In this document: one piece after another, positions 29,603 through 60,047 of the stretch
How the letters are laid out: each line of letters opens with the position of its first letter
Position numbering within the stretch: the first letter of the stretch is position 1
Source: Bugula neritina
Lineage: Eukaryota > Bryozoa > Gymnolaemata > Cheilostomatida > Bugulidae
Direction: 5' to 3'
Length of the DNA stretch: 64,000 nucleotides
NCBI GenBank assembly: GCA_964035545.1
Contig: OZ037770.1
Location: 5,437,662 to 5,501,661, forward strand
Made by a program: the position numbers and the translations under genes
Notes under the pieces: generated by a model
Told to the model about the DNA's origin: nothing
The model's database searches: none
The model's input: only the letters and a program-made list of their open reading frames with translations

Positions 29603-30510
29603 GTGGATGATGTGCTCCGGAGTCTACTCCTCAGACGCAGTCAGGAAGAATGGGATACGGTACTGCCACAAGTCATGCCCGCATACCGTAGCACCCCACA
29701 CACCAGTACTGGTGAGACCCCAAACCTTTTGATGCTCAAGAGAGAGACTCGGGTCCCTGACCATCTCACCTACCACATTCCAGAGCAAGACAGCTCGATT
29801 CACGAGTATGCCAGCGAACTAATGCAACGGATGAAGGTCGCACACAAAAGGCTGCGGGAGAAGCAGTGGCAGGTGCGACACGAGGATTCCAAGGAACCAC
29901 CCCTCTATCAGACAGGAGATTAGGTGTAGCTGGTCAACTATTGTGGGCATCGCGGGCAGGCAGATAAGTTACAGCCTAAGTTCGTGGGACCCTACGTGAT
30001 AGTCGAGGCTATGCCCAACCATACCTTTAAGATCGCGCACTCAGGACAAGTGTCCATCCAAAATGAGGTTTGCTTGAAGCCATATTGGGCTAGCCCAAAC
30101 ACAGTGGGAGAAGCCCACCCCTGTTGTTGGAGCCCAGGAGGCAGACAACAACGTGTGGGCAACGGCGGCATGGACCCGAGTATGAAGTGGTCATTCTGCT
30201 GGAAGACGACTTGGTACGAGACGAGCGACTGCTTCTACCCACAGAAGTGCGCCCGCCGCCTCCTATACCAAGTCTGATACCATCACTTATAGAAACCAAG
30301 CCGGTTCCGAAAGTGCAAACTCGCATGGATGGAGGGGCTCTATCTAGAAAATTAGAAGAAATGGTCACTACTGGGGAATTGGAAGCGCTGTCAGTGGCAC
30401 TTACTAGTCCACCGATGAGTGCGCCGCCTCCCCTAGAGCGAGGACAGCGTAAAAGACAACCCCCAGCCTATCTAAAGGACTTCGTATGTGACTGCGTTCA
30501 GAGCGGCACA
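29603..30510 (+). pseudogene. Gypsy copy B integrase C-terminus and pol tail
   Basis: The frame at 29603-29923 includes AYRSTPHTSTGETPNLLML and HLTYHIPEQDSS. It is interrupted by two TAG codons where the family has Trp (GDxVxLVNY; Trp codons in copy D), then continues at 29984 with KLQPKFVGPYVIVE. A shift to another frame leads into a proline-rich tail (IPSLIPSLIETKPVP) ending with RGQRKRQPPAYLKDFVCD, the conserved basic R-x-x-R-x-x-P-x-Y-x-x-D signature. Integrase would insert the cDNA. This copy is inactive. Confidence 0.8.
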
Positions 30511-30876
30511 TATGAAAGTTTAGAGGGGAACCGTACGGGAAAAATATCGAGCAACTGTGGGAGTTGTCAGCACGTCGGAAATATCAACTTTTACATCGGC
30601 GGAAATAAAATTCATCCGCCAGATGTGCAAAGTCCTAGTCACGCACCCCAACCATGTTGCTCGATCTTTTTTTACGCTGATGCAGTCAAAAGCAGACGTG
30701 CCTCTAGTCACTAGTACAAACCATACGCAAACATTCAGTATGTCATACAATACCAGATCGTGGGGTGAATTAACTATGTTCTTGGTATGGAAACTAGATT
30801 GCATCACTCAGCTCCGACTCATCTGAGTCAATTGAGCTGGAGATAGGTTTGCGAACTACAGTGTTAGGAATACAAA

Positions 30877-31784
30877 TTGATTCAGAGATTTCATAATCTC
30901 GTTTCAGTATGTGTCCTTTTCCAACTACTCACTAACAATAATCTCTGTGAGTGTTTAACCAAACGAGCAGTTGTCAGGCTGTCTAAGGCCGACATAACTA
31001 CAGTGTATTTTACTAACGCTGTTGAAACTCTTTCAGGTTACACTCGACCCGCCATGACCAGTGTACAAGACCCAGCATTTCTCGCTCCGCACCACGAGGA
31101 GAATACCAATGGCGGACTACCCGGGCCACTGCGCTGCCGCTGGCGGTGGGTGTCGCCAGAGACGGAGAGAAAAATAGAGGCTGCATGGGGACCTAAAGGG
31201 AGTACGCAGTGCCAACTCTGCTCTAAGGATAGCCTGTCTCACCGCTCACTCTGATTACATGTGGATGCCCACTTCTTACTTACATCCTGCTCATATGGAC
31301 ACCACGACGTCTACCCGTATCCAGTTATTAAACATCGAGCAGCTGGATGCTTCCCTGGGAAAAACTACGTTGTGGATGCTGATCTATACCCGAAATTCTT
31401 AGCACTGATACGGCCTTGGTGAAGAAGGCGATAGTACTGGCCGTTTTGACCTCCGGGTTCCAGCATGTGCTGAAATATGCTCGACAACAATCCTCGATGG
31501 TATCGGACCGACCCCAGATTGTATATACTCCTGAAGAATTCACCTACCCTGACGAAGAAGAGGAGCTAGCACCTTCCCCCCGTAAAGTACCGACCCCATC
31601 TCCAGATCGTACTTGCCTGGCTACTGTAGAAGAGCGGCTCTTTCGGCTACAGGCCGAGTTCACCCAATTAGCCCCAGATCTATTAAGTACCACGACAGGA
31701 CTCTATCAATTAAAAGGCTCAGTGGGTAGGAGTAAAAGGAAGCTACGTGCCCGTCAAGCCAAACACCGGCTATCCAAGCCCTGA
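30877..31784 (+). pseudogene. Gypsy copy B 3' ORF with tandem zinc fingers
   Basis: An acceptor-like CTCTTTCAG ends at 31036, and ATGACCAGTG follows at 31054. The frame holds RWRWVSPETERKIEAAW, then a C2H2 finger C-x2-C-x12-H-x3-H (starting CQLC, ending HVDAH) broken by one TGA at 31252. A second finger-like C-x14-H-x4-C (SCSYGHH...KHRAAGC) follows, and then YVVDADLYPKF, matching YEVDAESYPEF in copy A. After a frameshift, 31416-31784 encodes an acidic, then basic C-terminus (RSKRKLRARQAKHR) that could be a nuclear or nucleic-acid-binding tail. The role is unknown. It is not a recognisable envelope protein. Confidence 0.6.
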
Positions 31785-32077
31785 CTCTGGTTCTCCGTCC
31801 TGAAATGATTCGTAAGCCTTACCATCTTAGAAGTGATTGACTAACGCTGTGATCATGTAAATGCTTGACAGCTCATTTTCCTTGTCCACTACTACAGCTA
31901 GTGCTACTTCTCTCTTTGTAGCTAGCCAATTGTATATGCAGTAACTGTTGTAATGATATTGTCTGTCATTGTTATATATAAATATCTGTCTGTATTTTTA
32001 TGTTTTGGTCTACTGATATTATGTGTGCTGATTGTAAGTTTTTTTGTATCAGAAAGAGGGCTTTCTGCTGGTGGGGG

Positions 32078-32328
32078 CGGTGTGGTGGCTTGTGGAGCTA
32101 CCAGCGTAATAACTGGGAAATTTTACTTCCCCCGTGAGTGCAGCACGGGGTCAATGAGGTGACGCGGAACAGCAGACAACCAATCAGCATGACTGACAGT
32201 TTTTAGTAGTAGTAGCTTCCCGCGATTTAGTTAGTTGAGTTTAGACTGGTGAACTGAATAGACCGTATCAATTAGCTGAATGTATTTGTGTTACTGTAGC
32301 TTTTGTGATGTATTCTTGTGTATAAAAT
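32078..32328 (+). repeat. Putative 3' LTR start of Gypsy copy B
   Basis: TGTGGTGG follows a G-rich tract directly, as an LTR follows a polypurine tract. The D element also begins TGTGG at 54225. No second copy of this LTR exists in the window because copy B is 5'-truncated, so the call is tentative. Confidence 0.35.
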
Positions 32329-32401
32329 TGTTGTAATATTTACACAGTTTATGTAAACTTGGAGTTACCTTGTCTTGATGTTTTAGCTGATCAATTATTA
32401 T
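32329..32401 (+). repeat. 5' LTR fragment of Mag element
   Basis: 73 bp shared with 35705-35777 with one difference seen (CCTTGTCTTG versus CCTTTTCTTG). After it the sequence passes straight into gag coding sequence, with no primer-binding site. Confidence 0.8.
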
Positions 32402-33040
32402 CCAAACCCGAGGAAATCAATGCAGTACAAAATGTTGATAATAGGAAGTCAAGAATTTCTTCTGAGGTTACTTATGATAAACATTCTAAAAACCCATGTG
32501 AGCAATGTGGGAAAGCCATTACAAAAGTCAGAGATGTCCAGCTTATGGAACTAAATGTGCGAAATGCAATCAATTCAACTACTGGGCCGGAGTGTGTAGG
32601 AATTTGAATAAAGTCAATGAAGTACAGCCAGAAAAGGGTGACACAGATTTTTATTTAGGAGAGACACATCACATTAACTCCATAGATTCTCAATCCTGGT
32701 ACACCAATCTCAGAGTAAGCACCAACAAACACAAAGGACAAAGGTGCGTCTCTTAGTGTATGTGGTCCACATCATGTCTCAAGGGAGCTAATCTCAACTA
32801 GCAAAAAATTGTACGGCCCAGGGCAGACACCTTTGACATGTTTAGGAACAATAAAGTGCCAGATAACATCAAAGAATGAGCGCATAAATGAAGACCTTTA
32901 TGTTATTCAAGATCAAACCACACCATTGCTTAGCCGTAGTGCATGTGAGAAATTAAACTCATCTCTGTGGATTCATCTCAATGCCAAATATAGAATGTGT
33001 GTGTTGATGAGAAGCTGTTCCAAGGATTGGGGAAAGTAAA
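32402..33040 (+). pseudogene. Mag element gag end and protease, broken
   Basis: The Cys/His array NPCEQCGK (one frame) continues after a 1-nt shift as HYKSQRCPAYGTKCAKCNQF, giving two consecutive knuckles. The Asn-Tyr in NQFNYW replaces the Asn-His usual in this clade, so the second knuckle lacks its His. The downstream protease region is shattered. Its end is readable at 32809-33000 (YGPGQTPLTCLGTIKC, TTPLLSRSACEKL). The catalytic Asp region was not found. Confidence 0.75.
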
Positions 33041-34340
33041 TACAGAGCATGTCATTACGTTGAAAGGAGATGCTAAACCATTTGCTATCCATGTTCCCAG
33101 ACCCATACCTTTTCCTAGAAGAAAGTTAGCAGATGAAGCATTGATGAAAATGATTGAGGATGGAGTAATTGTTAAAGTTGATGAACCTACTCCATGGGTG
33201 GCACCTATGGTAGTAGTTCCTAAACCTGGCCAAAACAAGGTGAGAATTTGCACAGATTATACCGAGTTAAACAAGCATATTTTGAGAGAGTTCCATCCCA
33301 TGGCAACAGTAGATAGCAGCTTAGCTCAATTAGGACAAGGACAATTTTTTTCCAAGATTGATGCAAACAGTGGATTTTGGCAAATTCCTTTAAGCAAAGA
33401 ATCTAGCAAACTAACAACATTTCTGACTCATTCTGGACGATATCGCTATTTGCGACTGCCTCAAGGCCTATGCAGTGCTCCAGAGATTTTTTTTGCTGAA
33501 ATGAACAATATTTTGAAGGATGTTGATGTTGTGGTTATACATATGGATGACATACTGGTTTTTGGTGAGAGCAAGGAGCAACATGACACAAGATTGCAAA
33601 TAGTGTTGGAAAAACTTAAAGCTTCAGGCATTACGCTCAATAAAGACAAATGTAAATTTGGAGTACCATCTGTTAATTTTTTTTGGTTATGTCATAGATC
33701 AGTCTGGTATACATGTTGGCCCTCGAGTTCAAGGAATAGTAGATTTTCCTACTCCGAGAAATGTAACTTCAGTACGAAGTTTTCTTAGAATGGCCAACCA
33801 GCTATGCTAAGGAATTAGCTGCTGTGAGTGAACCAATTAGAATGCTGTTGAAGAAAGATGTTCTATGGCACTGGTCCAGCAAACAAGAAAACTCCTTCAA
33901 GAGGATAAAAGAAATATTTCAAAATGCACCAGTTTTAGCAGTCTATGATGTAGACAAAGACACCATAATCACAACAGATGCTAGCAATGCAGGTCTAGGA
34001 GCAACACTCTTTCAAATTCAACAGGATGGCTCTCGGCGCTTGATATCTGCTGCAAGTCGTTTTTTAACAGAGACCGAAAAGCGTTATGCAGCCATAGAAA
34101 AAGAAAGTTTAGCAGTCTGTTGCGCTATATGGAAAAGTTTTCTCCATATATACTAGTTATGAAGAATGTGGTTATTGAAACTGATCACCGTCCACTAGTT
34201 ACTTTGTTTGGGAATATCTTTCTAGACAGGCTTCCACCAAGAATTCAAGGGTTTAAACTTAGACCTCAAAGATTTCAGTATACTATCAGACATGTGAGAG
34301 GGTCTGAGAATGTTGCAGCTGATGCTCTCTCCAGGTATAA
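33000..34340 (+). pseudogene. Mag element reverse transcriptase and RNase H, frameshifted
   Basis: RT is open from about 33000 to 33690. It shows PTPWVAPMVVVPKPG, VRICTDYTELNK, FSKIDANSGFWQIPL, LPQGLCSAPEIF and the catalytic box HMDDILVFG, so the polymerase core is intact. A T-run near 33676 shifts the frame (FLGYVID-type segment lost). The connection region breaks near 33800. RNase H resumes at 33824 with IITTDASNAGLGA and, after another shift near 34120, ETDHRPLV and AADALSRY. The enzyme copies element RNA into cDNA. No single frame spans it now. Confidence 0.85.
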
Positions 34341-35594
34341 CACTGCTGAAGCGAACGAGATTGATGCAGCAAGAGAAATGGAAATTGAACTTTATATTGA
34401 TAACATCTACCAACATGGATCTGATAGCAGGTTGGAGCAGCTTCGTTTAGAACAGCATGAACATGAATTACTGTCAAAAGTAATCAAATTTGTAGAAAAT
34501 GGATGGCCAGGGTATTTGTCCACTGAAGATGTCCTTCTGAAGCCCTATTTTGAAAGAAGATCTCTTTTAACAATAAACAAAGGATTCTTGACACTTGGCA
34601 ATCGCTTGGTAATATCGTTAGTTCAAAGAGAACAGGTGTTGCAAGATTTACATAGAGGACACTTGGGCATTACAAAATGTCAAGCACGAGCTAGAGATAG
34701 CGTGTGGTGGCCTTCTATGTCAAAGGCTATTGAGGCTATGATCAGCAATTGTGCTGAATGCAAAATCCATGCAGCTAAAATTACAGAGCCATTACGTCCT
34801 TCTGCAACTCCAGATAGACCTTGGCAACACCTTAGCACTGATTTGTTGACTTATAAAGGCCAAGTATATCTTTTGGTTATTGATAATTATTCAAGGTATC
34901 CTGAACTTGCCTTGCTGGGAAACTCTGACTTTTCTTCAAGTAAAGTAATAACACACCTAAAATCTATTTTTTCACGACATGGCATACCTGAAATACTATT
35001 TTCAGATAACGGCCTGCAATATGCAAGTGCAGAATTTAAACATTTTTCTGTCGAGTATGGATTTACCCATGTGACTAGCAGTCCACATTATCACAGAGCG
35101 AATGGAGCAGCTGAGCGAGGAGTAAGGACCATCAAAAGCATGCTTGCAAAAGAGAAAGATCCTTATTTGGCTTTGTTAGCCTATAGATCCTCACCGCAGT
35201 TTAGCTCATACTCTCCAGCAGAATTGTTAATGGGTAGAAAATTGAGATCCACTGTACCCATCCATCCGGATAAGCTTAAACCTGAACTCCTGACCATGAC
35301 TCATTCAAAAGGAGCAACGATCAGTATAAAGAGAAAATGAAAGAAAATCATGACAAAAATCCTAAAGTGCGCCCTCTTTTGCCAGTAAATAAAGGAGACA
35401 ATGTGATGGTGAGAGATATGCAAAGAGAAGGCTATGCTGCCTCTTCTTCAGATAATATTACTCGTCGAACAAATGTCATGACTGACACTGGACCTTTAAT
35501 ACGTAACAGAGCTGATATAACTAATATCCCAACACGATGTTCTGAGCGAACCAGAAAAGTGCCACGCTACTTAACAGATTTTGATTGTACATAA
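34341..35594 (+). pseudogene. Mag element integrase and tail
   Basis: The 406-codon frame that starts at 34120 runs to 35340. It contains the HHCC zinc domain (HRGHLGITKC, WWPSM, CAECK) and all three DDE region markers (first Asp in LSTDLL, second in FSDNGLQY, Glu in GAAERGVRTIKS), so the catalytic residues are present. A frameshift near 35335 leads into the last segment (KGDNVMVRD, ERTRKVPRYLTDFDCT). This is the best preserved pol part in the window. Confidence 0.88.
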
Positions 35595-37475: not shown

Positions 37476-39456
37476 TTAGGGTTTTTCCTCTTCATCCAAC
37501 CCATCAAAGCCAGGAAACAGGTAAAGTCTTTTACGGGGAGGAAGAGTCTTCCAGATTACAACCAAATTTCTGCTTCTCTCTGAATCTTCATCTGCATACA
37601 GTTTCTTCACTAATTTAGTCTGTACCTGTAGAGTAAGAAATGACTAGTATGATTGTGTACCAATGTACTACCAGATGAGATAAATATTTACAACTCTAAG
37701 CTGCTGGAATATACCATCGTATTTGTATCAAATCTAAGCAGCAAAATCTTGAGAGTTGTCTGCTACAGTTAACAATATAAGATATATCATTGCAGTGAGA
37801 CTGAGACAGTCCGTAAACCTTCACAACAGGCTGATAGAAAAATCTCAATCAAAAAATATTAATAATAAACAGCTGAGATAAAAGAAATATTTTTGTATGA
37901 AACCAGAACTCAGCAAAACTATCATTCTAGACTTACCTGCATGAAAATGGTGTAGAGATCACGGTGACAGGCATGTTTGTAGATTGAAGATACGAGAGCT
38001 CTAACCATAGGAGATCCATACTCAGGATGTCTCTTTGATGCTATAATAAAATTAAATGCAGTCAAAATTATGGTGTAATGAAAGCAAGCTCAGTATTTTT
38101 AAAAGTGTTTGTTTGATATACTTTTTAAAGACAAGTTTACAAGATTGGATTAAGAAGAGACAATTTCCTAAATAACTGCAACTGTGCACATGTAAAACTA
38201 AACAATCACTATTTAGTATACGTACAGCAGACGTTGCTCTTTAGAACAAGAAGATTATCAACATCCAGTCTGGTCCTACGCTCTTCTATTCTAGGTGCTG
38301 GTGGTAAGACAGGTTTGATGGGTCTTATTACACTGGGTGTTTCAGGATATACAATATCATCATCAGATTCAGAATGTGTAGAAGAGACAGCTTCAGTTTC
38401 TTCTTCTTGAGCTGCTGCGAGACCAGATCCGTTTGGATTCACCTCAATGTTTGCTGCAAGAAAATATTTTTTAAGCTTGCATCTTGAGCAAAAAAGAAAT
38501 TCAATCAATACAGAGAGCGCTTTTCAAAGATCTTTGTTCTACTTCCACAACTCGACTAAAAATAAAAATTTTCTATAAAACGCTGTAATTACCTCCACTG
38601 CAAGCTTCTAGGATGACAACTGTAGGTTTACGCTTTAGACTTAGAGGAGCGAGTAAATCATACAAGTCTGTAAGATTGACCTTCTCAAGGTCAGTTCCGT
38701 AGATGCAGTTATCTTCTTCACCGTGACTCATGACAACCAGTATTTGACAGCCCAAGCCGTTGTTTCTTACATTTTTTATCTCGGACTTCACAGCAGACAG
38801 CATTTCCTACATTATTTTTATAAAATGTTATTATATCTCTAAAAATTGCTGCATTTTCTATATAATCCTGGCCCATCAGCCATTTATAGCATAACTGCAA
38901 CTTGACAATATTAGGAGGTTGCTAAATCTTGTTTCAATAGTAATAGGTATTTTCAGTTGAAAAGCTAATACGTCAGCCAAGTTGAGCTGTGTAAGTAATA
39001 TTAACCATAAAGGTAGGCCTAAATGAGAGCATTCACTTAAATCAGTATGACTATTGATAACTATAAATTTTGACTCACAAGCAAGTATGCCAAAATGTGC
39101 ACCCATTTTAACAAATCTTAGGTAGTATTAGAACAGTGTGTAAGTTGAGCAAATACTGAAAAAAAAGCTTGACCATAAAAGTTTGAATACAGTTTCACAT
39201 AAAAAGCATTTTAACTTCTTTAAAGAAATAGTATGCTACCGTGTATATAGTTCACTACTATTGCTGCCATTCTAAAATGTTATACCTCTGCTGTCAGGTC
39301 TGTGTGTGTCTCAACATCAAACTTGAGAGATTTCAACATGGCAGACATGTTCTCAACATCAGCATTTGAACCTTCCCTGCATAAGTCTGGTCTTTCGACA
39401 AAATTTTTGTTGTTTATGATCAGAGCTTTTCCTCTGTTTCTGGTCATATTGAACAC
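37476..39456 (-). CDS. Exons 8-12: caspase p20 and p10 region
   Basis: Exon 8 carries RGKALIINNKNF and CREGSNAD, with the S1-pocket Arg. Exon 9 carries the catalytic His (MSHGEED) and Cys (EACSG), 41 residues apart as expected. Exon 10 (76 codons) is the inter-subunit linker, with acidic stretches ESDDD and LDVDN that could be self-cleavage sites. Exons 11-12 are p10-like: SKRHPEYGS, which supplies the second S1 Arg, and RLYLFPGFDG near the end. The usual Gln before Ala-Cys is Glu here. The domain appears complete, so protease activity is plausible. Specificity for Asp is probable but not certain. Confidence 0.85.
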
Positions 39457-42400
39457 CTGGAGGCAAGAATATTTAGAATACCAGGTACAGTGGTGACATG
39501 AAAGTCTAATAAATAAATATTGGGAGCCAATTTGGCCGAGGCTCGCAATTATCAAATTATATTACGATCAAGTTTACTTTAGAAAGGAAGCAAAGATTCT
39601 ACATTCAGGTCTTCTTTATTACTAAGTTGAAAAAATAAAGGAAGAATTACAAGCGTAGAGCCACTCGAAATGTTTTACACGCGGGTGACATGCGAGAAAT
39701 CCCGTTTTGCTCAAAAATTGGACGATGAGAGGGGGATTTTAATGTGTCTAGCATGCTGAGTGAGAAATGCGAGAAGCTCGTGCGTGTTTGATCTAATTGG
39801 CTTATTATTATTTAGCGTGAAAAATTTTTTATTCCAATTCGAGTTTTAGCTTTTAGCAAACTGAAGTAAAACAGTTTTATATAATTCGCATTTCCGCTTT
39901 GATAATATCTGTCGAACTTTCATCGCATTGGTAAAAACTGACAGCTGCGTTCAGAAATCAGACAGTTGTGACGTCACAGAGGTCAACGCTTGGCCTCGAA
40001 AACGCATTCAAAATGGCGTTTCGACGGTAGTGTGGCAGCCCCATAAATTCACTTTGCCGATGACATAGTTTTATAAACAAACGTGTAAAGGCAAGCAGTA
40101 AGGTTTAACGCTAACATTGTTAGCTAATAAATTTTTGCACTCACAACACACGCACTGTGCGTGGCATGTCTATACGGGCACGGGTAAGGGTCTTCCCGCA
40201 CGTGACGCGCATATAAAAGGCTTCGTATGGCCCTACGCTAACACTATAGTGTATTGATTGTCCAAACCAAAATGTCTAAAGACGGCCGATAAACAATGTA
40301 ATAACCTTGACAGTATTTGAAAAGAGTTGTTTAATCCTGGGGTTGTTGGTGGGCTTTAAGTTGAGTTTTATCAACTTCATATCCTTGTCTTTTTCTTCAC
40401 CAGTGTGTAAAACTTCATCCTCATCAGAGAGATCACTTAGATCAACATCGTCTACAGCAACAAGATTTTATTGTCAGTATTTGATAAACGTAGGAAATTT
40501 GTTCAGTCCATACAAATAAACATTATATTTTGCCGGAGATAGCTTTGCTAAACTTGTCAAAGAAATTTACATGGTCAGAATTTCTATACTGTTTATACAG
40601 CTGTTTGAAATTAGTCAACAGCTTTTGCAAATTTTTTTTCTTTCAAACTTACCTCTATCCAGAAAAACAAAGCTAAGAACTAACTATACTGTAAAAGTTT
40701 ACCAGTTAAGTTCTTCTGCTCTATTCTTCGTAGTTTGAGCTCTGCCAACAGTGTCTCCAACATACTAATTTCTGCTTTTGACAACGCTTCACCTGAATAA
40801 AACTGATTAGATCAATTACCTTGACTATTACTTTGAATAAAACTATAACTAGATATGTTTTACTACCAAATCTCAATATTGACACAACTAAAAAATATGA
40901 CGAATATAAAAAAAATGTTTTCAATTGAATAGTTCAAACTGATGATATATTCGGAAACACGATTAGGCAATGTTTGGTGTTTAATCTAGTTATGATGAAT
41001 TCAAATTAGGAGTTCGTAACTTAAACTAACTACTCAAACTGACCTTGTGTACTTTCAACGTTTGAAAATGCATTAATGTTCAATAAAAAAAGAAAGTTTC
41101 AGTAAAAATATTCATGAATTAACTTACATGGGTAGATTAAAGCACTGGGCACTTCCTCGTTGTTACACAATGTTGTTGAAGATCCACTACATTTCTTTAC
41201 ATCTGGTGATGGGTTGCTTAAGGAGCGAAGACACCAATTAGGACGAATGATTTTTTCAGGGCAAGAAACCCCAAGCGTGATGCAGTGAGCACAGAAGCAG
41301 GCAGTGACTGGTCGACTAGCAGTCCAAGTTTCCATCACATGTCTGAGGATGTTGTTGTTGGTTGAAATAAGTTTCTCCCACATCCTCGAAATGTGAGCAG
41401 CATCAGATGACACATAGAGTAAGACTCTTCTTGCTTTGCAGTCATGTATCAGCTGTGTGTATATTTGATCTTGGTAAACATTAACCCCATTTTTCTTTAC
41501 CCTTCTCACAGCAAACTCCTCTGGAAACAGCTCTAGCAAACCCACAGTCATTTGGTGGTAGACGTGCTGTGGTAATGCCAGACCATTAAATTGTGTCTCA
41601 GCAGCAAGTAACAGGTCTTTAGATGATGTGTAGGAAGTGTTATATAGCTCCTTGGCAAACTGCGGAACAATGTAGTATGATTCTTTAGCATCATTTTCCA
41701 AACTACCATATAGCAAGCGGAATGTTCTGAGCAATGAAACAGCAATTTCAACATCACCAGGACTCTTGAAGGAAGTTTCGTCAGCAATCAAATATGTTAA
41801 AAGAAGTTGCATCATCATGCCACTAGTCTTGAAGCAATTAACAGATTTTTCAAAGTCTTGCTTTTCAATCCTGACTCCTTCTATGGAATGATATGATTTG
41901 AACTGATCAACTCGATTGTGCCAAATGTTTGGGTCATGGTGATACAAAACACACAACAGTTTGGTTACTTCTGTGATCTTGTGAAATACGTATGGCCTGA
42001 GTGTATCAATGTTCTTGTACCACAATACTTTGCCACAGTCATGCATGTATGTGAGAATAGTATCTAGCTGGCTTGGCTTCAGTTCAAAGCCGTCTTTTCT
42101 TAACACAAGCAGAATAAACCAAAAGGAGCAAAATGCTCCGGGTAAAGACAAAACCTTTTCATTCACTTTTTCCCATATCAAAGGCAAAGGCTTAACAAAA
42201 TGCTGACTGCTCTCTAGAAGGGAGCTCTTTATCAAGTCGTACTCAGCATAGTCGTCTTCCTTTCCGATCTGATATATATCTTCACTGGCAAAAACCTTTC
42301 CATTCAATGAATTGAAATGCTGAATTTTCACAAATTCCCCATCTGAGCTTTTCTCTTCATCAAGAATTTCTTTGCACAGTTTCTCAGATTCTTGAAGAAA

Positions 42401-45400
42401 GTCATCTTTTAGCTGTTGATACTTCTCACTTTGAAACTTATCTTTGTGTGTGAAAACAAGTTTAGGTGGGCCAAGAGATGGATGAGCGAGATAGAGGTGA
42501 GACATGAAATCAAAGGCCAACTTTCTCACAGCCTCTCTGTTTGTAGATGCTTTCGAAATCTGATCATACTGCTCCATGTTGACTACAATGACTGGTACAC
42601 AATTCTGTCTCAGTGTCAAATGGTATGTGATATGGTAGACCTCCTGGCCTCCCATATCAATGAGACGAAGAGTTGTACCATCCACCTCCACCTCTTCCAC
42701 ATTGAACACTTTTGTGGTCTCATCATACTCTGCATTCGAACTTCTCTTAGTCAGAACTCTCTTCCTGCCAGTGCTTTGTAATGTTTTGATCAGACTGGTT
42801 TTACCTGCCATGGTGTTCCCTAACACCGCTATTGTAGCAAATGGCAAGTTTCTACCAGTGCCCTTGGCCAAATCTGTGTAGTATTGTCGCACAGCATCTA
42901 ATCCTCTCTGACAAATTTCTAGTGGAGGAGATGTAAGAGCATTGCATTTGTTTATATTCAGTGTATGGAGATGTGTTAGCTGTAGTATCTCCGGGTTCAA
43001 GGATGTCATGAATATGTTGAAGAAAAGATTCAGTGTGTGCAGATTACTCAATATGCACACTGAATATGGTAGACTGGTGAAGTTATTTTCATTTATGTCT
43101 AGTGTCTGTAGCTCCTGTAGACTCTGTATTCTAATAAAATATTATATTTCTATTACCATCATAAACTAGAGGTAGTTGGTATACAATAATTAGGCAAGGT
43201 AGTATTGTGTGATAGTGACTATAGTAACCTCATATGAAACACTTTTAACTATCTAGCAATCAGCCTCATGGTAGCTACAGAAAACAAGTACATATAAGCC
43301 ACAACCATCATATTATATATACTGTATGTAAATTGGTGTTGTGTGTTGAGAGTAGAGAAAACGTAGAATAAGTATTGGAAGACTAGAAAAAGATATTAGA
43401 GGATGCCGGCCTATAAGTCAGCAGGTATAAACCTGTGTACCTATCACCAGAAAAAGCAGCGATGACATCAGAATCATGGAATACGATAGATTTGAACATT
43501 CCACTTTGCCTCAAAAAACCATATTCAAATACCTGGAGAATACAATTCACCAGGAAGCAGAATCTAGAGGTACAGGTGCGCATTGGCAACACCTAGGATA
43601 AATGGAGAGAACTGACTGAGGTAATATGTAACAATAAAGGAGAAATGAAGAGAGCTGACAATAAAGTTTGAAAGAAACTAAAGTCGCTTTTTCACAAGAC
43701 AGTAATATGAGCAGTTCTACTGTATGGAGTGTAAATGTAATGTTACGAAATAGGATGTTTACTGAAATTATAACTCGTAGTACAATCACACACAATCACA
43801 ATATCATCAACCTCAAATTAGCCCAACCACTAGCTGCCAGTAGTCAACCTAATGCTTCTTTAATTACTATCCCAAAACAGTAGCTACGCATGTAGAATGA
43901 TTCATAGTCAGCAGCTATGCTTGCATTAGCTGTGATGTCACACGATGCTTGTTTACTTCAGCCCACTTCTTGAAACAGTAAGATCCTACCCCAAAATAGT
44001 AAATTGTAAAATCATACCTCTTACAACACAATAATGTTTATCAAATGGATTAGTATATAAGACAAAACCATTTTTAGTAGTTGCAATATTGTTAGAGTCA
44101 TGCTGTCAGTTTGGACAGCATTAAGTTTATGTAAGACTACCGAAGAGTAGCATTATTTGAAAGACTGTGCAAAGCCACAGCATCAACATAACAGTAGACT
44201 AGGAGAGAGAGAAAAGAGGTAATGAGCATCTATTTACAATTATATATCGTTATTACATTTTTATGTTATAAAGTTTTTAATAATATGGGCTGTAGTTGCA
44301 TGCTATGTTGAATCATTATTTCATGCTGCTATCTACAATTTATGATATACATTGCTAGTGCTTTTACATACATACTTATTATATTACGTACATTTTGTTT
44401 GCCTTATGCCTTATGTTGTATCATTATTATTCTAGTTTTTACGGTCCGCATTTGGTCAGTATTTGGTGACTCAAATAAACTCTGATCACGTCTAAAACCC
44501 TCCCTATTCCTAGTCAGGCTGTATAAGCTAGAGTGTCACTCTAAAGCAAGAGCCATAGCAAAGAGTGTCATTCTATAGTAAACATGGCCATTGACCGATT
44601 ACCTTGCTGAAAGATTTAGCATAGCGTAGGTGAGAACCAGTCTTAAAGATGACAAAACCAGCGAGAGAATTAGGCAGTATTTACACATATATATAGAAGA
44701 GAGATGACATGAGAAGAGTACATGTGATGAGAGTTAGAGCAAAGAGAAATCGAGATGCTCATAGCGTAGTCAGCAGGACGCAATCAGGAAAAATAACCAA
44801 TTCTGTTTTCTCAATGAAGAAGACCCTCAGAATGAAGTTATGTAGAAAAGTTTATTTAGGCTAGGCCTCTGGCAGCCACCCACTACCCAAGCAAGACATA
44901 AAGGCAATAGGTGAGGGTACTGCCATACACTGCGTTTCCATGACTTCGCATAATGCGAATGAATGCCCCATACGGATTATTTGTGGTTTGTGGTTTGCAT
45001 TAACTTATAGTTGCGGTTTCATTCGATGTAACTGTTTCCATTAGCCGAATGAAAAAATCCATTCGCAATAATTCCCATATATGCATAGTATCTCATTGTT
45101 TCATCAAAATTTTGGAAGGAAATGAGAAGAGACACTAATAATTTATATAAATGAAATAAAAAAACCATAAGGATCATTTTGATAGGCATCATGCCTATGG
45201 AAATGCTTTTGTTATGTCTTAAAATTAGCTTGGGACATTGCTATTATGGAAAACAATGAGGCGTCCTCAAACTTTTTCACAGCACTGTACCTGACCACAA
45301 AATCTATTGTTAACCTAAGCCAGTCAGTAGGAGTGTACACATCAGATAGTCAACAAGTCTCTTAGCCCACAACTCTTTAGTCATTAGTAATGAAAGGCAA

Positions 45401-48400
45401 AGTCTGACATATCTCAACATAACTGTATGTTACCATACTTTGTACCACATATAATATGATGGGTATAATTGATTTTGTCATTTTATCTTATATACAGTGT
45501 TGATGTAATAATATGACTACATTATATAATTCATTTATATATGTCTTTTTTGTACCTGCAGGTTTAAATAATATAATATACATGCTAGTAACACTATAAT
45601 AGAGGGTAATGAATTTGTAAGTAAATATCATTATAGTCATTACAGAATACATAAAAACAATATTATTACTCTGTGTGCCTGCATTCTGTTACTGCAATTT
45701 TTTATGTTATAGTTTATCATAGATCATGTGACCCTGAGTATTAAACTTTATGTTTTATTCAACAGAGTACTTGTTTCATGTCATCAATAAAGAGAATCAG
45801 TGTTGTCAAACCTTTGCATTGACTTGTATTGAATACTAGCACAATGTAGTCTACTGTATTATAATAATATATACTGTATATATATTATGCTGCTTGTGCA
45901 TTCAAACAAGGAATAAAGTTTAGGCAGCAATGCAAATTTCAGTGCAGAGCTAATAAGTCAAGACAGCTAATGAGGATTCAACAGTAAATAAATACTAATA
46001 AACTATAAATGGCTGCTTTATTATAAATTATGAAGGTTTTCATATATATTTTACGACAAATCGTAGAACTATGTTATTTTCAAGATGTGAGAGACTATAA
46101 TACACATGTAACTTCAAAAAAACTCCAGATTATATACCTCTATATTTTTAACCTAGTAATATATAATGGGGTACTAATTAAAATTATTTAGCATGCATAA
46201 ATATGTGAGTTACTGTATTTTTAAACAACACAAAAGCTGTGAAACACAAACCTCTCAGGTAGAGTAGATAATCTACAGTCCTTCATACACAACTCTTTAA
46301 GTGATGTGAGTGATGACACAACTTCTGGTACTGTGTAGAGAGGATTATCTCCTATGTCTAGTTTCTCTAACTGAGTCAGCTGACACAGACTATAATATAA
46401 AGTGTGTGATATATGTAGTCTAATGCATAAGGATAATATATATACTGTATACATTTCTTGTGTATTCAAACCAGGTAAAAAATTCAAGTAATGCACTTAC
46501 TGTTACAAGACACCACAAGAGGTCGTTTCATTATTAAATACAAAACGTTTTACTACAGAATGGTATATAATACCATAGCTTACAACTGTGTTACTTCAAG
46601 GATATAACAAACTATTACATGCCTTTGAAAAATTCACTTTATATTTTTAACCACAGCAATATATAATATAATATACTTTAATATTACTTTTTAAGCATAT
46701 AAATATATGAATGTCTCAGTTTTTGAAACAAGGAAAGCATACCATGACACTAGTACACTTACAAAACTACTAAATAGAATTTAGAACTCCAATCATTTTT
46801 CAACAATAAAGCATTAAAATTTCACATACACTATAAAAGCCACCCAGAAAAAAAGGAACTGAATACAGAACAATCAGCCTAAAGAGTTTTGTTGTAACCA
46901 AGTTATTTTGAAGATGTGAATTATTGAATGCTAGAAACAATACAAAATCTGTGAAACACAAACCTCTGAGGTAGAGTAGATAATCTACAGCCTCCCATAT
47001 TCAACTCTTCAAGTGATGTGAGTGATGACACAACTTCTGGTACTGTGTTGAGAGGATTATATCCTACGTCTAGTCTCTCTAACTGAGTCAGCTGACACAG
47101 ACTGTAATATAAAGTGTGTGATACTTGTAGTCTACTGCATAAGGATAATATATATTATATACTGTATACATCTCTTGTGTATTCAAACCAAGTAAAACAT
47201 GCAAGAAACACACTTATTGTTGCATAGTACAGCGGAGAGTTTTTGTAGTTATATTGTAGGTGAGGAGAGAAAGCTTCATTATGCAAAGTTAGCTATTAGC
47301 TTATAGTACATGGGGCCCCATTCTACACGCTAAGTAAGTTAATCTGATGACTAAATTGTAATGTAATATATTTGTAGTTTATGACTTAAAGTAGCCTTTT
47401 CTATACTACTATAAACTGTGAATTACTTCAGTTTTCAGCTACATAAAACATGATTTATTTAATGCTATCAACTAGCAGTATACAGGCAGCTTTAAACCCT
47501 CTAATTACTACAACCAGCTTACTTGGTATAGTTACAATGTTGCACATGTCCTTATTTTTATGTATATTATATTGTATAAATATGTTATCAGCAAAAGGAT
47601 GCTACAGCTTCAGCATCTATTATAGGTTATTATTTAATAAACAACTAAACTCATTTAACATTCACACAGCTATTGTAATAGACACTCACTTGTCCAGACT
47701 TGCCCTGTCAGTCAGGTGAGAAACAAGTAGACGCAGGGCTTTACCAGCAATCTCTCCAATGTTACTTGGAAGTTTCCCTTCCAGTTTCAGATCTATGATA
47801 TCATAACTCCCAACTTCACGTTTTACCTCAGCAGTAGTATATAATTTGGTATTAGCCCACCATACATCTGACCAGCTCACAGGAGGCTGTCCAGAATGTC
47901 TGAACCAGATTTTCATATTCTCTGTAACATAATACAGCAATAGTGTGATTACTACACAGTGCTAGCAGGTGGTGTCTATCATTCTGACACCTGTCATCTA
48001 CTGTTTGAATATATTTATTATATGGTGGATGTTAATATTCATATCTATAACTAAATTACACATAATTATTTTATTGAGTAGCTTTAGACTCTTCATAATT
48101 AGTCATTTTGTGTATAATTTCCAGAGCAGTGTTGATTACTTTGCAATAAGACAACTCTAACCAAGCTGCTTTCATCATCTTACAATTTTTCAAAGCATTA
48201 AGTTGATTGTTGACATAAACAAGTATAGGATGTAGTGATGATGTATTAATCAGTATCTATTAAATTGTATTGACATAACATCTACATTCACTTATCTGTT
48301 ACCTTTCATACTTCAAGGTTTACATACATGTACTAAAGAGTTGGACATACAAACATTACATACAGATGAAGATAACAATGAATAGTGATGGATACAACCA

Positions 48401-48661
48401 AACATATGCATATTCTTCACATTAGTATTTGATGTAAAATCCAAAACTTACAGATTAATAATCTTACATTAGTTTTACATCTAAAGCTACAGTTTGATGT
48501 ATTACTCATATATGAGAAGCCTGTGCAGTGTTGACTAAATATAATAATCAAAATTATACAATTATAATAATTTACATCCTATTATCAGTATTGGAATATT
48601 TTTATTGTCCCGGAACAATTGAATAAAGTAGTTATTAAATTCACTCACCACCAGTTGCCAT
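37476..48661 (-). CDS. LRR-ROC-COR-caspase fusion protein, 12 exons
   Basis: Minus-strand exons 48661-48649, 47921-47690, 47101-46964, 46389-46252, 43130-41128, 40792-40703, 40451-40306, 39456-39286, 38806-38593, 38453-38226, 38040-37937 and 37625-37476 total 3627 nt, coding 1208 residues plus TAA. Every junction has GT/AG and matching phase. Order: an N-terminal segment (1-81), leucine-rich repeats (about 82-240), a ROC GTPase with P-loop GNTMAGKTSL (about 277), DMGGQE (about 331) and THKD (about 402), a COR domain, a Cys-rich region, a short coiled coil (about 843-870), an acidic linker, and a caspase domain (about 921-1200). The caspase His is in MSHGE (about 1005) and its Cys in EACSG (about 1046). 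Inference: a ligand- or damage-sensing switch that activates a protease, like an NLR. Caveat: the exon 7 donor is weak (GTTATT), and reading through it would end the protein within nine codons, so a separate caspase gene is possible. Confidence 0.75.
39660..40260. promoter_or_regulatory. GC-richer promoter-like island in intron 7
   Basis: A CpG-containing island within AT-rich surroundings. It holds a full CRE, TGACGTCA (39969-39976), an E-box CACGTG (40199-40204) directly followed by ACGCGC, and a TATA-like TATAAAAG (40212-40219, plus strand). It lies between the ROC-COR exons and the caspase exons. It could be an internal promoter, an enhancer, or the remnant of an inserted element. The TATA-like box points toward the plus strand, against the gene. 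Confidence 0.4.
41128..43130 (-). CDS. Exon 5: last LRRs, ROC GTPase and COR
   Basis: A single 2003-nt open exon. It begins with LRR units (LQELQTLDINENNFTSLP, LTHLHTLNINKC), then the ROC domain with G1 GNTMAGKTS, G3 DMGGQE and G4 THKD. The COR region follows, with the WYKNIDTLRPYVF block and a helical stretch to YIVPQFAKELY. A C-terminal Cys-rich segment (CFCAHC, SCPEKIIRPNW) precedes a strong GTAAGT donor. ROC and COR act together as a GTP-dependent dimerising switch in ROCO proteins. The exon is intact and free of stops. Confidence 0.9.
43131..46251 (-). other. Intron 4 of the LRR-ROC-COR-caspase gene
   Basis: About 3.1 kb without a supported coding exon. 44930-45070 contains TGCGTTTCCATGACTTCGCA and several ATTCGCA/TGCGAAT motifs, suggestive of a small DNA-transposon remnant. 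45846-45915 resembles the intron just upstream of the two LRR exons and may mark a lost third LRR exon unit. Confidence 0.45.
46252..47101 (-). repeat. Tandemly duplicated LRR exons 3 and 4
   Basis: Exon 3 (47101-46964) and exon 4 (46389-46252) are both exactly 138 nt and of the same phase, each coding two LRR units. They share almost the whole sequence (CQLTQLE, EVVSSLTSL, CRLSTLP). The introns on both sides are also similar (AAAGTGTGTGATA before, GAGGTTTGTGTTTCACA after). The unit was duplicated as an exon with its intron flanks, a route by which the sensor region can lengthen without frame damage. Confidence 0.9.
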
Positions 48662-54729: not shown

Positions 54730-55698
54730 ATGGGAGATGAAGGAGAGGAAGAGATGGTGGGAGAGAGAGAAGAGGATGATCGTCTCACTATAGAAACTCG
54801 CATCACGGCCTTCCGAGAAGTTAGCAGGGCCGGGCATGCAGTACTTGGAGACAGGTATCGCCTCAGGCGCCCGATTTTTGGAGGCGACGGAGACATCGAA
54901 CAATTCATTAAGAAGTTTAAAGAGGTAGCCACCCTCGCCGAATGGCCGGCACAGGTGCGCCTTCTTCATCTCCGTACTTGCTGAACAGGTCAAGCAAAGA
55001 GTTATGCTCTCGGGCATGATGTCAGGCACATTTTTCAGGCCTTCAGGTCTCGCTTCGGGCTGACCGCCTGAGCCGCCAGGGATCATCTACGAACCATACG
55101 CAGAGATAGGAAAACCTCATTTCAAGATCATGCAGATGCTATTGAGGCACTAGCACAGGTAGCCCATAGCAATGACGAACCCGAAGCACAAAGAAGCGCT
55201 GTGTACGAGGCCTTCTTTCATACCATCAACAACCCCTGGTTGCAACGCTATTACTTAGCAGCGAAGGTTACTACTATCAAGGAAGCCCTGGCTTTGGGCA
55301 AGGCCTACTACCAAGTGGACGAACCTCAGTGCGCGGATTTCACCACCAATCAGGTTGAGGAACAGCTGAAGGTCCTCAAGCCGGATCCACCAAGCTCACA
55401 GAATGTGGCAGCCGCTACCGCTACACCATCGCCTGACCAGCTGACCATGTTGATGGACATGGTGAAAGGCTTACAGGCTGACATGAAGCAGATGCAACGA
55501 GAACAGGCTGATAGACGGACGCCCAGACCTCGGGGCAAACCAATCAGCACTTCGCACCTCACCTGTTGGGGATGTGGTGCCCGGGGACATGTGCGAAGGC
55601 AATGCTCCCAAGAGAGAAGGGTGTCTTTAAACACCCAAGGCTCGCGGAAACTTCCGCCAACCGTGGGCCCCAAGCCATCCCCATCCGGGAGGAAATAA
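54730..55698 (+). pseudogene. Gypsy copy D gag
   Basis: One reading frame from an ATG at 54730 to 55698, with two TGA stops (54982 and 55069) and otherwise open, about 323 codons. It contains FGGDGDIEQFIKKFKEVA, FQAFRSRFGLTA, AVYEAFFHTINNPWLQ and a CCHC knuckle CWGCGARGHVRRQC (about 55564-55605), followed by a basic Pro-rich end. It is the capsid and nucleocapsid precursor. The next frame, carrying the protease, overlaps its end in the -1 frame. Confidence 0.85.
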
Positions 55699-56530
55699 CC
55701 AAAAGGACCTTTTCCAGGCCTGCTGATGTCAAGTGGCAGGCACCTCGGAGACATCAGAGACTGCCAAGTCTACGCGATTCTCTAGCTCAGCCACTGAAGA
55801 CCCGGGTGGAGCCTAAAGATACAGGATGGCAGGCACCTCTGAGATCTCGGAAACCGCAAGGTGTGCCCGATCCTCCGGCCTGGCCACTCCAAAATTGGTT
55901 CGCAAGGTTGCCTGAAGAGACTGTGGAAAAAGATTCAGCTTACTCGCAAGAGTATCCTAAGTTACCCTCCCAGTCTCAGAAAACCCCCGTTGTCTGTAAG
56001 ACAAAGAGGAGGCCCGCTGTAAGGGCCCAAGAAGTGTCTCCCCCAGAGACTGACCGACCCAGGAGCCCCCAGCCGTACGAAAGCAGCTACTTCCTATCTA
56101 GAAAAAGTTCGTGTAAAGCTACCACTTTCCTGCTGGGGACAGGGTGCACTACAAGCCTGCTAAGTCGGCGTCTCTTCGACACACTCGGTGCCCGAGAGCA
56201 GGCAAGCCTCGAGCTGTACATGGGAGCACATGGTACGTTGGCGGACGGATCGTTTATTCTTTTCTACGACATTATTAGGTTACCTTGACGCGTTCGTGAT
56301 CAAGCAATTGACAGATGTCATTTCTGGAGAAACACCAGTGTTACATGGATTCCCAGAAGTCGGTGGTGGTGATGGCTGGGAAAGAGCTCGCCTATGTGGA
56401 CAAGTTTGGTAGGCCCTTGGTGGGCGGAGTCCAGGTAGTACAGGCCTGCAGGGTTCCAGGAAGATCCCAAGCTACTCTCCGATGTAGAGTCAACTGCAAG
56501 GGGATTGCTGCCCAGGAGTGGTGAAGGGAA
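55566..56530 (+). pseudogene. Gypsy copy D protease region
   Basis: A 240-codon frame (55566-56288) overlaps gag in the -1 register, as in elements that use ribosomal frameshifting. A long Pro/Arg-rich linker leads to the protease start TTFLLGTGCTTSLLSRRL, where the catalytic Asp of Asp-Thr-Gly is replaced by Gly. Old copy E keeps Asp at this place. Two further frame changes follow (56315-56524 with VVVMAGKELAYVD). It is inactive as a protease. Confidence 0.8.
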
Positions 56531-58290
56531 CACACGGAGCAATTCAACTGGCGAACAGCCTTAATTGGCTAGACTGTCGGAGGGAGCTCCTCGTGCAGTG
56601 CATCAACCCCTTCACGGAACCAGTCCAATTGTTGGCTGGGGCACTGGTGGGAAAGTACCACTCCATCCAAGAAGCTGATGTAAGGCCGGCACTGGACACA
56701 GTGGCCGACACTCAGGGAGACTCTCCTCGTGCCAGTCGAGGAGCAGTCCTAAAACACATGGCTAACCTTTACGGTGGAGCATGTGGCAACTGTACTAGTA
56801 GTGCCAAACGCCAGGTACTGACTGGCTCAACTACTGATGTAGTACAGGGGAATTGGGCTGATTAAGGTTATCTCTCATGAGATACCCCTGGCAGCCGGCA
56901 CCACCCCTATCCGACAGCCGACCCGACGGAGAAGGAGGTGAGCCGACAGGTGCAGGCTCTTCTCGACTGGGACTTGATTGAGCCTGCTCACGGTGCGTGG
57001 AGCTCTCCCGTAGTCCTGGTCAAGAAGAAGGATGGTAGCTGGAGACACTGTGTCAGCTACCGCAGACTCAACAGCGTCACCATCCAGGATGCCTACCCTC
57101 TCCCACAAATAGATGAGTCTCTGGATGCCCTCGCAAGTAGCAAGTACTTTAGTACTTTGGATCTGCTTAGCGGGTACTGGCATGTACCTCTCAGTTCTGA
57201 TGCCCAGGACAAAGCAGCATTCATTACTCACGATGGGCTCTGAAAATGGAAGGTACCGTCATTTGGACTTACGTTTGCCCCGGCAACCTTCCAACGGCTC
57301 ATGGAGCAGGTGCTCAGTGGGTTGCACTGAAAGACCCTCCTCATCTATCTAGACGACATCAGTGTTATCTCCCCAGACTTTATTACTCATGCCAGTCGTC
57401 TGCCAGAGGTCTTCGACCGCCTCCGGGCAGCTGGACAGAAGTTGAAGCCCTCCAAGTGCGCGCTCCTTCAACAGGAAGTCACGTACCTGGGCCATATGGT
57501 TGGCCGCGATGGGGTTGCCACCGATCTGGAGAAGTTACAAGCTGTGAAAGAGTGGGCTGTCCCCCGGGACCTCTCCAAATTGCGGGCATTCCAGGGCCTA
57601 GTAGGGTACTACAGACAGTACATACCTGGGTTTGCAGGGGTGGCTCAGCCTTTAAATCGGCTAACCACCAAGGGGGTGCGGTGGCAGTGGACACAGGGGG
57701 AGCAGCAGACATTCGATCACCTCAAACAACGGCTAGTGGAGGCGCCGATTCTGGTGGATCCTGATCCAGCCGAAGAGTACACCCTGGACACAGACGCCAG
57801 CGACCACAACGTGGAAGCTGTTCTGTCTCAAGTCCAGGGTGGAAGTGAGGTGGTTGTTGCTTATTACAGAAAGACTCTTGTAGCCGCCGCCGAAAAGAAC
57901 TACTGCACTACTAGGAAGGAACTTCTAGCAGTAGTCAGGGCAGTCAAGCACTTCCTGCCATATCTGTATGGGAGAACGTTCAGATTACGAACAGACCATG
58001 CATCCCTGATATGGCTGTGCAAGCGTGCAGAGCCCTCGAGTCAGGTAGCTCCCAGGCTAGAGATTCTTGCTGAGTTCTCCTACCGGATAGAGCACCGGGC
58101 CGGTAAGAAACACGAGAACGCCGACGGCATGAGTCGCCAGCCGGTAGAAGACAGCAAGCAATGCCTGCACATTGAGAAGCGTGATGGGGGCCTCGCTTGC
58201 CTTGACCTCAAGGCACAGTTGGGAGAAGGCAACGTCTATCGTTGGGAGCACGGCCATCTTCGGCCCGAAACTCACTCTTATGCTGTCTAG
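56518..58290 (+). pseudogene. Gypsy copy D reverse transcriptase and RNase H
   Basis: Mainly one frame. The RT N-terminal region includes LIEPAHGAWSSPVVLVKKKD and YFSTLDLLSGYWHVPL, with a TGA at 57241. FGLTFAPATFQRLM is followed by a TGA near 57328, then the catalytic YLDDISVIS. VTYLGHMVGRDGV and FQGLVGYYRQYIPGF lead to RNase H (YTLDTDASDHNVEAVLSQ, TTRKELLAVV, LRTDHASLIWL, ENADGMSRQP). The active-site Asp pair of RT and the RNase H Asp are present, but the stops prevent a full protein. Confidence 0.88.
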
Positions 58291-58429
58291 TCACTTCGCG
58301 CCAACCTCACGCTGTACCAGAATATCAAAGAGCTGTGTCGACTACAATAGACATTATCCGAAACAGCCGCTGATATCTTCAGGGCAAAGAAGGACGGTCG
58401 GCGACCCACGGAAGAGCAACAGCGACATA

Positions 58430-60047
58430 AGGACGCAAAGTTCAGGTTGCTCTGTCACCGCTGGAATTCTCTTCAGATCCGTGCAGACGGCCTCCTGACA
58501 ACAACACTTGCAGCAGACAACCGACAACAGGAGAGAGATCGTGTCGTATGTCTACGCGCTCTCCATCGAGAACTCATCTGGGATACCCATAAACAAGCCT
58601 ACGCTGGGGCCAGTCAGGTTATCAGATGCCTGCAGATGCAGTGGTATTGGCCTGGGATGACCGGGATGTCCGACTAAAAATCCGACAATGCGAGATCTGT
58701 CAAGCCAACAAACACGGGCGCCTCACCGAGACCACAGGCCGGCGCCGGCTGTACGCCGACTGGCCTTGGCAGATCGTAGCCTTGGACCTTGTGAGACCAA
58801 TGCCCACAACAGATAGAGGAAACGCCTAGATTTTGGTTTTGACAGACCACTTCACACGGTGGGCGGATGCCTTGGCTATCCCCGATGCAGCGGCACCCAC
58901 GGTAGCCCAGGTCCCGGACCAACACGTGTTCTGTTACTTTGGCCTACAGGAACAGATACACACCAATCAGGGCGCCCAATTCTAATCAGAACTAATGAAA
59001 GACCTCTGCGAAGTATAGGAGGTGAATCAAAGCCGGACCACCCCGTACCACCCTCAAGGAAACGGGGTGATAGAAAGAAACAATCTAATGCTGGGTGATG
59101 TTCTTCAGAGTCTCTTGTTGGGGAGGAGTCAAGAAGAGCGGGACATCATGTTACCACAAATTATGCGAGCTTATCGGAGTACCTCTCACTCTAGTACACA
59201 TGAAATACCAAATCTGCTGATGTTGGGTCGCGAAACTAAAGTTCCGGGACATCTCACTTACCACGTTCCAGCTCCCGAATTTCCCGTACATGAGTATGTA
59301 GGAAAGTTGGTCGAGACCATGAGGAAAGCTTGTGAAGCCCTGCGAAAGAAACAGTGGGCAGTGCGAACAGAAGATTTTGAGGAGCTTCCCTTATACAAAG
59401 AAGGGGACTGGGTGTGGATGGTCAGCTACCGTAGGCGTCGCGGACAGTCGGCCAAATTGCAGCCAAAGTTCGTCGTACCCTACTGCGTAGAGGAGGTTTT
59501 GCTCAACCACACATACCGTGTGAAGCGCTCAGGACAAACCGCTGTCCAAAACGAGCAGCGGCTAAAACCTTACTACAAAAGCCCAGAAGCAGCAAGACAA
59601 GCACCCCCACTGCTGGAGCCCCCCCCGCCAACCCGTCTCTCGGGGGAGGGTAGCTCGGCCTAGAAACCAGGAGATCTTTGTCCGCATTTCTGAAGAGCTT
59701 AATGACACACAGCGGCCACCACCCCAGCCACAGCTAGAGGATCGGCCAATCCCGGGCTTGACCTCGGTGGCCCTATGACAGAGGACCCCACACCACCACC
59801 AGAGAACCCAGGGCCTATCGCACCACCAGAAAACCTAAAAAAAGCACCCCCAATACAAAACACTCCAGACCGGCCAGATACTTCAGCCGCTAACACCTTA
59901 GAAAAAAGAAAAAGGGATAGAAGACCCCCAAAATACTGGGCTGACTACCACATTGGAGGTCTAACCAACCCCAAAATATCGAATTGTTTGCTCCAAACAA
60001 ATATAAATTCAGTTCACAGCCTTAACCTAGGCAATAAATACCTCTAA
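58430..60047 (+). pseudogene. Gypsy copy D integrase and pol tail
   Basis: The zinc domain starts near 58565 (WDTHKQAYAG). Its second His is Tyr here, while copy A keeps His. CEICQANKHGR follows, then the first Asp (IVALDLVRPMP). The second catalytic position reads HTNQGAQF, with Asn instead of Asp, and a stop follows. From 59022 the frame is open with YHPQGNGVIERNNLMLG (catalytic Glu), AYRSTSHSS, HLTYHVPAPEF and KLQPKFVVPYCVEEVL. The tail (59775-60047) ends with the basic signature KRKRDRRPPKYWADY. Inactive. Confidence 0.85.

Follow-up and report, generated by a model that had tools for sequence, protein, structure and literature searches.

Do the leucine-rich repeats (LRRs), the Roc-COR GTPase and the caspase encoded side by side in the genome of the bryozoan Bugula neritina form a single protein, and what would such a protein do? 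ROCO research has been driven largely by LRRK2 in Parkinson's disease, and how the state of Roc-COR is transferred to an effector is unsettled; a natural Roc-COR–protease fusion would offer a new readout. The reading that we favor, with a probability of roughly 0.65, is that the gene encodes one presumably intracellular protein, an LRR-sensed and Roc-COR-switched caspase that would belong to a receptor repertoire for cell death and immunity or for self/non-self recognition.

Gene model and domain order

The gene lies in a 64,000-nucleotide stretch of DNA (the window) on contig C6, taken as chromosome 6, where it occupies about 5,475,137–5,486,322. The host genome is Bugula neritina tzBugNeri2.1 (GCA_964035545.1), which comprises 216.00 Mb in 9 chromosomes according to the consulted part of PMC11480708. 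The predicted gene is composed of the following features.

37476..48661, minus strand: LRR-ROC-COR-caspase gene, 12 coding exons, 1208 aa (joined frame and Pfam scan)
48649..48661, minus strand: exon 1, 13 bp, encoding MATG, the least certain exon of the gene (joined frame)
47690..47921, minus strand: exon 2, N-terminal part ahead of the LRRs, also with an alternative in-frame ATG
46964..47101, minus strand: exon 3, LRR exon of 46 codons
46252..46389, minus strand: exon 4, LRR exon, tandem duplicate of exon 3
41128..43130, minus strand: exon 5, last LRRs, Roc GTPase (GNTMAGKT, DMGGQE, THKD) and COR
40703..40792, minus strand: exon 6, start of the linker
40306..40451, minus strand: exon 7, acidic linker with IKQLFSNTVK at its end
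39457..40305, minus strand: intron 7, 849 bp, between the linker and caspase exons (the disputed junction)
39286..39456, minus strand: exon 8, start of the caspase domain (VFNMTRNRGKALIINNKNF)
38593..38806, minus strand: exon 9, catalytic His (SHGEED) and Cys (EACSG)
38226..38453, minus strand: exon 10, inter-subunit linker, then start of the small subunit
37937..38040, minus strand: exon 11, small subunit
37476..37625, minus strand: exon 12, C terminus (RLYLFPGF) and stop

A sequence-only reading of the window had joined twelve minus-strand exons in frame into 1208 residues and had placed LRRs and a ROC-COR GTPase (P-loop, DMGGQ, THKD) before a caspase with catalytic His and Cys. The joined frame confirms the first claim, as the 12 GT–AG exons (48661–37476) are free of stops over 1208 residues, and the Pfam scan, motifs and alignments bear out the second, with the domains in the order LRR, Roc, COR, acidic linker and caspase. 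Particularly, the Roc domain (PF08477) scores 30.2 bits against a cut-off of 27, COR follows directly behind it, and Peptidase_C14 reaches 104.3 bits (cut-off 21.4, E 1.1e-29). CARD, death domain, NACHT, NB-ARC and kinase did not appear in the Pfam scan of the joined protein at E 0.1, in line with the earlier suggestion that the protein works without a CARD adaptor. Elsewhere in the window, long ORFs at 30094-35594 and 55072-59663 (both plus strand) resemble two retrotransposons with reverse transcriptase and integrase, as judged by eye from ORF lists.

The gene family and the linker–caspase junction

A genome search with the window caspase gave 157 matches. Among the matches listed, at least 54 distinct loci match the first caspase exon (exon 8 type); this count is a lower bound, since it covers the exon-8-type rows among the matches listed of the 157, with the best candidates scored. 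These loci, again among the matches listed, are distributed over C6 (32), C1 (11), C5 (7) and C3, C4, C7 and C8 (one each). On C6, at least 28 of them are located at 2.6–6.3 Mb in same-orientation runs of 11 minus, 11 plus, 3 minus (the window among them) and 3 plus.

Seventeen of the at least 54 loci were inspected, the window included. Every one of the 17 contains the linker exon, 16 contain the ROC-COR exon, and exon 6 (30 residues) is matched in nine of the 16 other loci (L039–L045, L053 and L055). The single exception, L057, belongs to a further batch of five loci, four of which contain ROC-COR; it has the linker and the caspase exon, and ROC-COR is absent from the 4.6 kb before its linker exon, a stretch that may be too short. 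That the remaining 37 of the at least 54 loci also encode ROCO-caspases is an extrapolation. Five caspase loci on other chromosomes (L045–L049), taken as controls with other partners, were rejected as such, all five being ROCO-caspases. Among three further control caspases, L051 on C7, not counted in the 54, belongs to a second ROCO-caspase subfamily near the Bugula database protein P0029 (EB796_002463), sharing 87% identity with its ROC-COR part, and L050 and L052 have neither a ROC-COR nor a linker match within ~5 kb upstream. Judged by these matches, the LRR–ROC–COR–caspase gene is a member of a family, not a lone oddity. Some family copies may be pseudogenes, as L041 carries a frameshift in exon 5 (the ROC-COR exon) and L043 an insert of ~700 nt that splits its exon 5 match.

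The junction between exons 7 and 8 is closely preserved in this family. In all 16 other loci inspected, the donor and acceptor of intron 7 (GT–AG, phase 0) fall at the same codons, with intron lengths of 82 to 1236 bp. In seven loci (L045, L046 and L053–L057), the intron is 103 bp or shorter (82–103 bp), leaving little space for a promoter and leader. Moreover, exon 7 is open in 7/7 copies and its dN/dS in six comparisons with the window copy is 0.16–0.33, indicating purifying selection in the joining frame; it is thus very likely translated in the frame that runs into the caspase.

The junction can also be followed outside Bugula. The alignment of Watersipora subatra P0001 with the window protein runs from Roc, includes the linker and extends as far as the C terminus (29% over 960 columns), and in P0001 and the Watersipora protein P0024 the motif (I/V)KxLFxNT, then V(F/Y)xM, bridges the junction. 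The database records of P0024, of P0027 (also Watersipora) and of Bugula P0029 list both Roc and Peptidase_C14, with the P0027 model breaking off inside the caspase and the P0029 model having no segment equivalent to exon 8. In our Roc scan, P0027 and P0029 are above the cut-off of 27, and P0024 (26.0) and P0001 (20.7) are below it. The named matches in the protein searches come from Watersipora and Bugula only, among the best ~8000 candidates scored per search. The sequences thereby show the ROC-COR–caspase fusion to be conserved within the genome and in a second bryozoan genus, both genera being cheilostomes.

Several further database models were noted. Three Watersipora models named MFHAS1-like or MFHAS1 homolog (P0021, P0028 and P0037) break off at the IKxLFxNT motif of the linker or shortly beyond it and may be either truncated models or genuine caspase-less isoforms. 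In one model, the caspase of W. subatra P0024 is followed by fibronectin type III domains and by a hydrophobic stretch at the C terminus, which represents either a further fusion or two merged genes. P0002-P0016 are metagenome ORFs with 43-77% identity to the ROC-COR exon, and are probably animal DNA.

We therefore regard the exon 7–exon 8 junction as real, and a single LRR–ROC–COR–caspase protein, as first read from the window, as well supported by the conserved junction, the selection on the linker and the alignment with Watersipora P0001. That an LRR-ROC-COR gene and an adjoining caspase gene were wrongly joined by eye is very improbable and was rejected: an ATG does stand ahead of the caspase core within the exon 8 frame, P0021, P0028 and P0037 end before the caspase, and the four human ROCO proteins lack one in the consulted part of PMC6337361, but the splice sites and phase are identical in 16/16 other copies with introns down to 82 bp, purifying selection acts on the joining frame of the linker, the spanning motif is kept in Watersipora, and public databases already contain fused models.

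Sensor, switch and protease

The LRR part shows signs of recent change. Over 298 nt, exon 3 and exon 4, flanks included, share 88.9% identity, which indicates that LRR exons are undergoing duplication. At 45845-45913 (minus strand), the intron sequence found ahead of these two exons occurs a third time (79% over 72 nt); no LRR exon match follows this copy, and it probably marks a lost LRR exon. To compare the parts of exon 5, dN/dS was calculated for ten pairs among the window copy and the seven paralogs with full-length exon 5 matches (L039, L040 and L045–L049); L042 and L044 were excluded. In the separate exon 5 comparison with the window copy, L043 was left out because of its insert, and L041 gave no value owing to its frameshift. 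The ten pairs share sequences and are not independent. The dN/dS of the LRR part is 0.26–1.03 and lies above both Roc and COR in nine of the ten pairs; in the tenth it is 0.15, between the Roc and COR values. Roc and COR range from 0.09 to 0.30 over the ten pairs. The LRR ratio exceeds 1 in a single pair only (1.03), and the LRR part often has a lower dS, which inflates the ratio. This pattern fits relaxed or diversifying evolution of the sensor and is no proof of positive selection.

The GTPase motifs GNTMAGKT, DMGGQE and THKD are intact in the window copy, and the motifs GxxxxGKT, DMGGQE and THKD are all present in seven of the eight sequences examined (the window and seven paralogs); in the eighth, L049, the DxGG(Q/N)E pattern is unmatched. 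Together with the frameshift in L041 and the insert in L043, this indicates that the GTPase switch is not intact in every copy. The predicted Roc-COR fold of the window protein matches CtRoco and LRRK1/2. According to the consulted part of PMC5714945, CtRoco, a bacterial Roco protein, is mainly a dimer when nucleotide-free or bound to GDP and a monomer with GTP. In the consulted part of PMC3995007, complex formation by MASL1/MFHAS1 is described as modulated by GTP binding and its toxicity as enhanced by GTP loss. The sequence-only reading had called this part a GTP-dependent oligomerising module; the Roc-COR assignment stands, and GTP might favor either association or dissociation, given the portion of the CtRoco work cited above (PMC5714945).

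The window caspase also matches PDB caspases, namely an ancestral effector caspase and CED-3. Its SHG (His) and AC (Cys) align with the ancestral effector caspase-3/6/7 and with CED-3, and its pentapeptide is EACSG, which deviates from QACxG. Known caspases have a Gln at the position of the Glu in EACSG, where it helps to hold the P1 Asp. One candidate S1 arginine aligns with the solved caspases (CREGS with TRNGT), and a second (SKR with SWR) does so in a non-significant alignment only (score -2.8); S1 arginines are the caspase residues that accept the P1 Asp. In addition, an Asp-containing linker connects the large and small subunit regions. The window copy is thus probably an active caspase, possibly with shifted specificity.

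The catalytic residues vary among relatives. We counted them in 20 close paralogs, that is, the genes obtained by merging overlapping loci among the matches listed, with the window included and the more distant caspases L003–L008 left out. The catalytic His is kept in 20/20. The catalytic Cys is present in 14 (12 with EAC and two with QAC), and six have Ser instead (L011, L017, L019, L023, L032 and L034), these Ser-bearing copies being probable pseudoproteases. The distant caspases show VAC or LAC at the end of the alignment (L003, L005 and L008), EVCSG (L004), QACRG (L006) or HACSG (L007). With the Cys lost in 6/20, not every member would be able to act as an executioner, and proteolytic activity, judged by these residues, is not what all family members have in common. 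The earlier description as an executioner protease may suit the window copy, which keeps His and Cys, and would not extend to the six close paralogs without Cys.

These substitutions, and the departure of EACSG from QACxG, also bear on an alternative in which the protein is mainly a regulator, its caspase-like domain serving as a pseudocaspase-like scaffold or inhibitor and its output coming from the GTPase more than from proteolysis. We consider this unlikely, given that the Cys is kept in the window copy and 13 of the 19 other close paralogs and the His in all 20, and that the dN/dS of exon 8 is 0.14–0.50 in six comparisons.

Proposed role and relation to known systems

Under the favored reading of an LRR-sensed, Roc-COR-switched caspase, we infer a death or immune role for the window protein, which could work as follows. 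A ligand bound by the LRRs would change the nucleotide or oligomer state of Roc-COR, and this change would bring two caspase domains together or release the caspase domains. The caspase domains would then cut themselves at Asp residues of the linkers and cleave targets, by which the cell would be killed or alarmed. Copies with Ser in place of Cys might act as brakes, decoys or scaffolds. The copy number, the duplication of LRR exons and the weaker constraint on the LRR part suggest an intracellular receptor repertoire, which could serve pathogen sensing or self/non-self recognition in a colonial animal. More tentatively, these proteins might constitute a receptor class of the bryozoans' own, dozens per genome, that unites LRR sensor, Roc-COR switch and executioner caspase in one molecule, with the dead members as tuners.

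The large clustered family, the less constrained LRR part and the sessile colonial life of the animal would also suit a role in colony allorecognition and not pathogen defence, with polymorphic LRR receptors triggering local death on contact with a foreign colony; as the specific function, this seems improbable. Larval and polypide tissues undergo extensive replacement in bryozoans. A caspase effector would suit such replacement, and the protein could instead serve developmental cell death, in larval metamorphosis or polypide degeneration, rather than immunity. However, dozens of divergent genes and the duplication of LRR exons seem excessive for a developmental executioner, and we regard this role as quite improbable.

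If the receptor reading is true, a single polypeptide would act much like an inflammasome, needing no recruitment through CARD, PYD or death domains, and this in a phylum about whose immune system little has been learned. The bryozoan receptors would then cover a job shared elsewhere by NLRs, adaptors and procaspases, in immunity or in colony self/non-self recognition, and the family offers natural comparisons between paralogs that retain the catalytic Cys and paralogs that lack it. Our analysis suggests that the bryozoan family represents a class of immune receptor or built-in death switch that had not been described before.

Each part of the protein is known, and the ROCO-caspase combination and its bryozoan expansion are undescribed in the literature examined, which covers the field in part. 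According to the sequence-only reading, no animal ROCO with a C-terminal caspase is known to have been described; a description was likewise not found in that literature, but unnamed Watersipora and Bugula database proteins already have the combination. The review PMC6337361, in its consulted part, distinguishes LRR-RocCOR proteins, a type with a C-terminal kinase, and DAPK1 with a death domain. Group 1 ROCO proteins (MFHAS1/MASL1, CtRoco) likewise have LRRs followed by Roc-COR, and several Watersipora relatives are named MFHAS1 homolog or MFHAS1-like by NCBI; the bryozoan protein has, in addition, an acidic linker that is conserved and a caspase at the C terminus, and exists in many, partly arrayed copies. 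LRRK1/LRRK2 and DAPK1 also combine Roc-COR with an enzyme in one chain, in DAPK1 together with a death domain, whereas the bryozoan enzyme is a cysteine protease and not a kinase, with kinase and death domain absent by Pfam. The LRR-ROCO candidate immune receptors of brown algae are similarly expanded, with shuffled and diversifying LRR exons, and a caspase is unmentioned in the consulted part of PMC11378527.

Other animal proteins share parts of this layout. In the amphioxus LRRs-caspase and TNFR-caspase hybrids, sensor repeats are fused directly to a caspase, and the hybrids were proposed to couple recognition directly to death (PMC2575513, consulted in part). As described there, they are set apart by QACXG and by Roc-COR being unmentioned, whereas the bryozoan protein has Roc-COR and EACSG. 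ROCO proteins with TIR, CARD or death domains are reported, in the consulted parts of the sources, from Aplysia (PMC9334734), Actiniaria (PMC5094078) and Trichoplax (PMC4104024); they likewise join ROC-COR to an immune or death domain, which is an adaptor or TIR in those animals and the protease itself in the bryozoan. For the sponge Dysidea avara, a figure legend on NLRs lists both CASc (caspase) and COR among its domains (PMC12909245, consulted in part); the legend is silent on the two sharing one protein, and the proteins are classed as NACHT NLRs. Finally, NLR inflammasomes and Apaf-1 with procaspase likewise combine a repeat sensor, a nucleotide switch and a caspase output. Compared with these systems, the bryozoan protein has Roc-COR in place of NACHT or NB-ARC, and its caspase lies within the same chain, which would make CARD/PYD recruitment unnecessary.
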